Shown piece by piece: positions 1,245 through 47,462 of a stretch of 47,462 nucleotides of DNA (positions are counted from its first letter, which is position 1; every line of letters starts with the position of its first letter). The position numbers and the translations under genes are program-made. The notes beneath the pieces were generated by a model that did not search any database, was not told the origin of the DNA, and saw only the letters and a list, made by a program, of their open reading frames with translations. The stretch covers positions 1 through 47,462 of the forward strand of contig CAJQIC010000007.1 in assembly GCA_905478335.1 (NCBI GenBank), read 5' to 3'. This DNA comes from an uncultured Bacteroidia bacterium. GTDB lineage: Bacteria > Bacteroidota > Bacteroidia > NS11-12g > UBA9320.

Positions 1245-1272
1245 TAAAAAAACCCCCAGTTACCTGAGGGTT
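1245..1272 (-). terminator. Rho-independent terminator of the tRNA-fMet gene
   Basis: On the minus strand a 9-bp stem with a four-base loop (arms 1251-1259 and 1264-1272) is followed by a run of T from 1250 downward. The single imperfect pair is a G-U wobble only in the minus-strand RNA, which supports that orientation. It lies 4 nt after the 3' end of the tRNA. Confidence 0.8.
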
Positions 1273-1276
1273 GTTG

Positions 1277-1348
<72 letters not shown>

Positions 1349-1660
1349 ATTTAATCTTTCTCGCTCGAACCTTATCCGCCAGTTGGCGGATATGAGTCCC
1401 GATGTTTCACTTCTAAAACATCCCGCGATTTAATCTTTATCGCTCGAACCTGTGTCCGCCAGCTGGCGGATATGAGCCCGATGTGCTTTACTGACACATC
1501 CCGCGATTTACTCTTTTGGAGTTTCAACTTTGTCGTTCCTCCTTTATGTCTTTTAGTCTTCCGACTTAATTTCTTTTTCTCGAACCTATGTCCGCCAACT
1601 GGCGGATATGAGCCATTGAAACCGGATTTGGACTGCTCCATCCCGCGATTTCGGACGGCA
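1349..1660 (-). repeat. Three degenerate tRNA-fMet-derived units with hairpin substitutions
   Basis: Three further copies of parts of the adjacent tRNA-fMet lie at about 1364-1428, 1443-1506 and 1579-1648. Each keeps, in order on the plus strand, the T-loop piece CTCGAACC, the anticodon piece TATGAG and the acceptor piece CCCGCG. The 3' acceptor strand is lost in all three. The anticodon/variable/T-stem interval is replaced by a 16-bp palindrome of the form TCCGCCA-N2-TGGCGGA (1375-1390, 1455-1470, 1591-1606). In the first two copies the D-arm position carries a new stem, GATGTTT/AAACATC and GATGTG/CACATC respectively. None can be a working tRNA. Open frames through here are artefacts. Confidence 0.85.
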
Positions 1661-1754
1661 AAGATAAGTCGTGATTTTAATAAATCCAGACCTTTTTTCT
1701 TTTTGTTTTGGGATTGTGATTTCCAGAACAAAAATTAAACGACCTTTGCACTTT

Positions 1755-46444: not shown

Positions 46445-47224
46445 ATGACTCAAGAACAGCAGATTGCCGCGGAAATATTATACAATGCCAGTGCTTATAA
46501 AACACCATGTGACCCAATTCGCACAGTGATTGGAGAAACGGATATTGCCACGGCATATGGCGTACAGGAAATCAACATTAAGAAACGGCAAGCCGCCGGT
46601 GAAAAAGTAGTGGGCAAAAAAATTGGCCTGACCTCGTTTGCAGTTCAAAAGCAACTGGGTGTGGATCAACCTGATTACGGCGTGTTGTTTGATACTATGA
46701 AAATGGGCATGAACGGTTCACTAGCTACGAGTGATTTAATGCAACCAAAAGCCGAAGCGGAGATTGCTTTTATTATTAAAGAGGATCTAGATGGCGACAT
46801 ATCAATGGAAAGTTTGGTAAACGCAATAGACTATGCGGTTGCGTCGATTGAAATCGTAGGAAGTCGTGTACAGAATTGGGATATCCGAATTACCGATACA
46901 ATTGCAGACAATGCTTCTGCTAGTCACTTTGTCTTAGGAGATAAAAAAGTGCGCCTCACGGATTTGGATTTAACAGGTTGCAAGATGGTTATGACTAAAA
47001 ATGGTGTAACAGTATCTGAAGGTACAGGTGCAGCGTGCATGGATAACCCGCTTAACGCAGCCCTGTGGCTTGCTCAAGTCATGTCTAAAAACGGACAACC
47101 TTTAAAAGCAGGGGAAGTATTGCTTTCTGGGGCGTTAGGGCCAATGGTTAGCATTGAAGCAGGGGACTCAATTTCGGCATCTATTGAAGGCTTGGGTGAG
47201 GTTGGTGTGTCGATTTCGAATTGA
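46445..47224 (+). CDS. 2-keto-4-pentenoate hydratase-type enzyme (FAH superfamily)
   Basis: A 259-residue protein of the hydratase/decarboxylase branch (MhpD-like) of the fumarylacetoacetase superfamily. The metal-binding acidic triad lies in KAEAEIAF (about 103-110), with GKKIGLTS (57-64) and the C-terminal SGALGPMVSIEAGD block. Members hydrate 2-oxopent-4-enoate or decarboxylate 4-oxalocrotonate in meta-cleavage pathways. No other pathway gene is nearby, so the actual substrate cannot be given. It is a single gene, divergent from the PorV-like gene. Confidence 0.86.
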   Translation: MTQEQQIAAEILYNASAYKTPCDPIRTVIGETDIATAYGVQEINIKKRQAAGEKVVGKKIGLTSFAVQKQLGVDQPDYGVLFDTMKMGMNGSLATSDLMQPKAEAEIAFIIKEDLDGDISMESLVNAIDYAVASIEIVGSRVQNWDIRITDTIADNASASHFVLGDKKVRLTDLDLTGCKMVMTKNGVTVSEGTGAACMDNPLNAALWLAQVMSKNGQPLKAGEVLLSGALGPMVSIEAGDSISASIEGLGEVGVSISN

Positions 47225-47462
47225 TTTTTTATCTTTCTTCGATTAGGGTTTAAGCAACCTTAGACCTTTCTTCCATTAGGCTTATCAGTCCGCCAGTGGT
47301 CGGACAAGCTCTATAACCGATTTTCATTTTTGAGACCAAAAACGAAACAAACGTGTCCGCCCACCGGCGGAAAGTCTTACCAAAAATATGCTCCCTAACA
47401 CACCGGCCAGCGCGTCCCCCGCATTTTTGGTGGGCCAACGCTCTTGTTCAGCGTCAGGTAAA
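47225..47462. repeat. Structured intergenic repeat at right edge
   Basis: No gene is recognised here. Two imperfect 16-bp palindromes of the TCCGCC...GGCGGA type lie at 47289-47304 and 47356-47371, the same motif as in the tRNA-derived units near 1375-1606. Longer arms (47379-47391 with 47421-47431, ACCAAAAAT/ATTTTTGGT) enclose a GC-rich loop. A small hairpin, ACGCT/AGCGT, lies at 47438-47454. The short open frame here is a palindrome artefact. The element continues past the window. Confidence 0.6.

Follow-up and report, generated by a model that had tools for sequence, protein, structure and literature searches.

Damaged initiator tRNA copies with palindromic arms in an uncultured Bacteroidia bacterium: a probable relic of a tRNA-specific GIY-YIG homing-type element

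Three damaged units derived from tRNA-fMet stand immediately upstream of an intact initiator tRNA gene on the minus strand of a 47,462-nucleotide stretch of DNA from an uncultured Bacteroidia bacterium (contig CAJQIC010000007.1; the whole stretch is called the window here). We assume, with a probability of roughly two in three, that these units are the relic ('upstream type') of a tRNA-specific GIY-YIG homing-type element that is devoid of its open reading frame (ORF). Elsewhere, units of this kind are tied to the tRNA gene from which they derive and to a gene for a GIY-YIG endonuclease. Such an endonuclease element acting at the DNA level was not foreseen by an earlier reading of the window made without database searches (the sequence-only reading in the following), which had suggested a tRNA-derived repeat family, perhaps SINE-like or acting at the RNA level. 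A small GIY-YIG gene was found neither in the window nor in the genome to which it belongs (G000), nor in a genus-mate that carries a similar array (G004), and the link to an endonuclease at the window locus is therefore drawn by analogy. Since damaged, palindrome-bearing extra tRNA copies are present and the GIY-YIG gene is absent, the window is classed as an ORF-less relic and not as a full member of the class.

The initiator tRNA gene (CAT) is recognised as intact by ARAGORN and by Rfam (RF00005, 68 bits). In the 5'-to-3' direction of the minus strand, every unit opens with CGCGGGATG..., corresponding to the 5' acceptor and the D side, and continues with CTCATA, the palindrome TCCGCCA-NN-TGGCGGA, a T-arm stub (..AGGTTCGAG) and an AT-rich linker (Table 1). 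The palindrome follows immediately 3' of the anticodon and A37 in each unit, where it replaces ACCCGAAGGT, that is residues 38-47 of the real tRNA; the 3' T strand and the 3' acceptor are absent from all three units. The description given by the sequence-only reading, namely three degenerate fMet copies that keep the 5' acceptor sequence, the anticodon region and a T-loop landmark (here the T-arm stub), share one palindrome and have arms replaced by hairpins (the substitute D-arm stems in units 1 and 2), thus holds for this locus. As a TAnnTTTG promoter element precedes unit 3, the units stand between the promoter and the tRNA.

Table 1. Features of the initiator tRNA locus in the window, listed from high to low coordinates.
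Feature	Position	Strand	Basis
TAnnTTTG-type promoter -7 element (TTATCTTTGC) of the fMet gene	1659-1666	-	minus-strand pattern; kept in genus-mates with and without units
Unit 3: tRNA-fMet 5' part, CTCATA, palindrome, T-arm stub, long linker	1506-1647	-	sequence
Unit 3 palindrome	1591-1606	-	sequence, simulations
Unit 2: tRNA-fMet 5' part with substitute D-arm stem, CTCATA, palindrome, T-arm stub, linker	1428-1505	-	sequence, fold
Unit 2 substitute D-arm stem (GATGTG/CACATC)	1480-1500	-	sequence and fold
Unit 2 palindrome	1455-1470	-	sequence, simulations
Unit 1: tRNA-fMet 5' part with substitute D-arm stem, CTCATA, palindrome, T-arm stub, linker	1349-1427	-	sequence, fold
Unit 1 substitute D-arm stem (GATGTTT/AAACATC)	1401-1422	-	sequence and fold
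Unit 1 palindrome, extending to 1373-1392	1375-1390	-	sequence, simulations
Intact initiator tRNA (CAT)	1276-1348	-	ARAGORN, Rfam RF00005
Terminator hairpin and U run 3' of the tRNA	1246-1272	-	sequence and fold

A chance origin of the three palindromes is excluded. Three such palindromes were obtained in none of 2000 Markov-1 simulations of positions 1349-1660 (simulated mean 0.07), and the entire window contains five matches with at most two mismatches versus 0.03 expected. The covariation that had been claimed for the substitute D-arm stems is true but slender. The stem of the homologous unit in G004 (GATGTGTC/GATGCATC) can also be paired, with two wobbles, which indicates that the covariation is real, although it rests on three distinct sequences and amounts to one two-sided change plus wobbles.

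Pairing of the substitute stems in three distinct sequences, together with the position of the units between promoter and tRNA, could point to a functional RNA, either a leader with an insulating or regulatory effect on initiator tRNA maturation or a source of tRNA-derived small RNAs, with the hairpins under selection. The window palindromes also favour correct folding of the real tRNA (native pairing of 0.61 versus 0.25 with native arms). However, the value is 0.53 in the window once both native arms are restored, the folding gain is absent in G004 and reversed in another genome with such units (G009), the units are missing from the genus-mates G001 and G002, and the tRNA is the sole real Rfam match at the locus. 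We consider a functional RNA quite improbable. The folding tests gave a mixed picture, selection at the RNA level is at best weak, and the SINE-like or dispersed family proposed by the sequence-only reading is not borne out, as dispersed copies of the unit were not found in the window genome and the unit is restricted to the fMet locus.

Relatives provide the context in which the units can be understood. In G004 (CALSTB010000003.1, an uncultured Bacteroidia MAG) a longer array occupies the same fMet/era locus, and the elongator tRNA-Met of this genome is preceded by two units with the same palindrome immediately after CATA. The fMet leaders of G001 and G002 are free of units, and such fragments are absent at most fMet loci of the order. 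The plain leaders of these two genus-mates resemble the linkers of the units, and a unit is therefore probably a duplication of the leader together with the 5' half of the tRNA. Among 394 Bacteroidota genomes that were scanned for TCATATCCGCC..GGCGGA, 17 gave a match, often with arrays, and a reversed control gave none. Unit anatomy in G160, a member of a distant family, is the same as in the window, and in both fMet and elongator Met the identical palindrome occupies one and the same residue of the tRNA, in distant families as well. A search of the genome and its relatives for the unit, which the sequence-only reading had recommended, hence yields a single locus in the window genome and units at Met tRNAs of other Bacteroidota; arm replacement recurs, and the units belong to a recurrent tRNA-derived class, in agreement with the earlier view that simple decay is not sufficient.

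Upstream-type units at a Met tRNA were found in eight genomes (G000, G004, G009, G038, G160, G380, G428 and G474), and six of them have a small GIY-YIG gene linked to a Met tRNA, the two without being G000 and G004. Units and endonuclease gene share an identical locus in four genomes (L056, L094, L080 and L055, the last with an ORF start that runs into the contig end). At L056 (G038) and L094 (G428) the upstream units, the intact Met tRNA, the ORF and the 3' half are all present in one locus. The genus-mate G002 contains a stop-broken copy of the endonuclease gene with fMet relics on both sides.

Slippage or unequal crossing over could also have produced an ordinary duplication in tandem, made up of the leader and the 5' half of the tRNA; if short palindromes of a sort frequent in the phylum then happened to settle there during decay, no endonuclease would be required at the locus. 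This explanation agrees with the window genome being free of a GIY-YIG gene, with the composition of the units as tandem leader plus tRNA 5' half, and with the presence of TCCGCC..GGCGGA palindromes elsewhere in such genomes. It is at odds with the identical palindrome at the identical residue of both fMet and elongator Met in distant families and with the Met-linked endonuclease in six of the eight array-bearing genomes; moreover, the other palindromes of the window genome mostly belong to one unrelated repeat. We regard tandem duplication without an endonuclease as unlikely.

The TCCGCC palindrome is not specific for tRNA units, since 19 copies are present in the window genome. Most of the copies looked at belong to another repeat, of the ACGAAACAAACGTG-TCCGCC type, and one is part of a terminator. 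This dispersed repeat (..ACGAAACAAACGTG-TCCGCC-NNNN-GGCGGA..) is unrelated to the tRNA units and occurs at the right end of the window (47150-47462) and at about nine other sites (L249, L251-L257, L259), several of them at contig ends. In another genome (G156; L301-L303, L305), a larger hairpin repeat (GATTGCTTC ... TCGCAATGACG) bears TCCGCC..GGCGGA in its loop, so that palindromes are nested at hairpin tips. A palindrome TCCGCCACCGGCGGA lies inside an apparent RNase P RNA gene of bacterial class A, near its 3' end (88 bits; L309, G114:C2:508800-509220), which indicates that genes for other structured RNAs are entered by these palindromes as well. Taken together, the occurrences in other hairpin repeats and in the RNase P RNA gene make a separate palindrome-swapping process in Bacteroidota likely. 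REP and RPE sequences are likewise short perfect palindromes scattered in bacterial genomes, the REP families being tagged by GTAG or CGTC at one end (PMC3733652); the window palindromes differ in that they stand for tRNA arms, and they were not filed as REPs because they are flanked by CATA and by CATA/CACA/TA and carry neither tag.

At many loci an ORF of about 85 codons ends right before a palindrome-bearing tRNA half. The encoded proteins are GIY-YIG endonucleases with UPF0213 proteins and SLX1 as nearest solved relatives; a filing as defence system was dropped, as it gave weak partial matches only. A profile of nine Met-linked proteins matched 87 of 148 Bacteroidota genomes, and 89 loci were fetched from the better-scoring matches. 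A complete tRNA gene on the same strand was present within 500 bp of the small GIY-YIG gene at 74 of these 89 loci (within 150 bp at 67), a fraction that may be lower among all such genes because the better-scoring matches were surveyed. None of 30 uvrC loci of the same phylum, used as control, had such a tRNA gene within 500 bp (Fisher p=3e-17). Several of the 15 exceptions are located at contig ends or inside tandem arrays. The neighbouring isotypes include Met, Asn, Asp, Val, Ser, Leu, Pro, Arg, Gly, Cys, Gln and Ala. In the usual layout ('downstream type') an intact tRNA is followed by a terminator, the ORF and a damaged tRNA 3' half; in the mirror layout ('upstream type') a damaged 5' half and the ORF precede the intact tRNA. 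About eight tandem GIY-YIG ORFs with a spacing of about 364 bases, each followed by a palindrome-bearing fMet 3' half, are found in G160 (L139, G160:C34:5500-11000), and in G255 (L189, G255:C21:131000-134500) a pair of near-identical GIY-YIG ORFs is interleaved with two complete genes for tRNA-Ser(GGA), which looks like a recent amplification of tRNA and ORF as one unit.

At 65 of the 74 loci, the region beyond the ORF contains a remnant of the neighbouring tRNA that scored above all 200 shuffles (51 of the 60 downstream-type loci and all 14 of the upstream type). Perfect palindromes (stem of at least 6, loop of at most 6) were present in 51 of the 74 remnant regions, compared to 7.7 in shuffles and 18 of 74 in the intact tRNAs. 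They stand at recurring places: in remnants of Val, Arg, Gly, Pro and Ala the palindrome lies between residues 26 and 44 and takes the entire anticodon arm, in Met it is placed between 37 and 48, in Asp between 49 and 58, and in several upstream cases in the D loop. The remnant at an ORF-bearing upstream-type locus of tRNA-Val (L248) consists of a 5' part, a palindrome for the anticodon arm and a T-arm stub, in the same order as in the window units.

A tree of 104 small GIY-YIG proteins follows the tRNA isotype and not the host family; with only 79 columns, its fine branching is uncertain. Isotype requires 21 changes on this tree (minimum 11, shuffled mean 59.1), a value that none of 200 shuffles reached, and all 16 Met-linked proteins fall into one clade that spans eight host families. 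Host family requires 53 changes (minimum 17, shuffled 62.7) and is far less clustered. This pattern is expected of target-specific mobile endonucleases and pertains to the class as a whole, not to the window itself.

From these data we propose that an element consists of two copies of one tRNA gene with the gene for the endonuclease of about 85 amino acids between them, and that one of the copies is kept intact and the other truncated on the ORF side, often with one arm turned into a palindrome. The endonuclease would recognise and break the tRNA gene of one isotype, and the break would be repaired from the element-bearing copy with the tRNA sequence itself as homology. As an outcome, the tRNA and the element may be inserted or tandemly amplified, or pieces of the tRNA only may be gained, and one working tRNA would be kept. 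With its native arm gone, the surplus copy would be spared further cutting or recombinational loss. In the window, the ORF would have disappeared and three surplus 5' copies with leader would have been left before the real gene. Three points do not fit this homing model well: the intact tRNA adjoining the ORF ought to be a target too, loss of a cut site (or of homology) accounts for losing an arm and not for its substitution by a hairpin, and similar palindromes are also found outside tRNA remnants. A wider proposal, which we put forward tentatively, is that Bacteroidota harbour phylum-wide minimal homing elements in which each protein lineage is devoted to one isotype and the tRNA gene is both target and homology arm; an SLX1-like nuclease might act on a stem-loop of the target, repair might swap the tRNA arm for a palindrome that marks the spent copy, and the window might then hold a non-autonomous array.

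Group I introns with homing endonucleases occupy the anticodon loops of tRNA genes, CAU tRNAs included. They resemble the present element as selfish insertions at the tRNA anticodon region and differ from it in that here no intron is present: one copy of the tRNA is intact and uninterrupted, with the ORF outside it. A GIY-YIG/tRNA-half element of bacterial chromosomes was not found described in the open-access literature searched, and the small tRNA-linked GIY-YIG genes are apparently an undescribed, phylum-wide family in which each lineage sits by one kind of tRNA. The nearest described system is SegB of phage T6 and other T-even phages, a free-standing GIY-YIG homing endonuclease that adjoins tRNA genes, cleaves inside them and causes the segment to be amplified in tandem (PMC13096335). 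Both systems place a GIY-YIG gene by tRNA genes; cutting is demonstrated for SegB, whereas we infer it here, and SegB acts in a phage genome instead of a bacterial chromosome. The passages on SegB report no isotype preference and describe no palindrome-armed half-tRNA remnants (PMC13096335). Proteins of the UPF0213/SLX1 branch of the GIY-YIG superfamily (PDB 1ywl, 1zg2, 7wme, 7cq2) are similarly small and single-domain; in contrast to the present family, the UPF0213 proteins of solved structure are hypothetical proteins for which no target is known, and the review PMC1564403 gives no tRNA linkage for them. Most of the sampled small GIY-YIG genes, which are numerous in Bacteroidota, are now linked to tRNA genes, and each endonuclease clade thereby gains a predicted target that is directly testable. 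The homing-type reading would also account for odd half-tRNAs with foreign hairpins and suggests that essential tRNA genes serve as homing sites in bacterial chromosomes, similar to SegB in phages. The recurrent exact swap of tRNA arms for palindromes is a strange signature that calls for an explanation of its own.

The fMet gene also looks like an attachment site of tyrosine integrases. A second intact fMet gene of the window genome is located on another contig (C59; L006, G000:C59 1440-1580) and precedes a 30-base duplicate of the fMet 3' end and the start of the terminator (G000:C59:1905-1934); direct repeats (TTTTACTGACAG/TACTGTCAG) are present near both fMet loci (1172-1195 in the window). 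The units could therefore be thought of as remains of tyrosine-integrase elements, the more so as fMet 3'-end duplicates adjoin tRNA copies at C59, L034 and L060 and the TTTTACTGACAG repeats look like arm sites. These duplicates, however, comprise the tRNA 3' end only and lie downstream, whereas the units comprise the 5' part, lie upstream and lack the 3' end, so that an origin as integrase att products is disfavoured and appears extremely improbable.

The left end of the window is probably a mobile element. A 156-aa ORF on the minus strand (104-574), which we take to resemble the N-terminus of IS21-type IstA, is adjoined by a tandem GGTTTACCCTGGTCAG-like repeat at positions 637-740.
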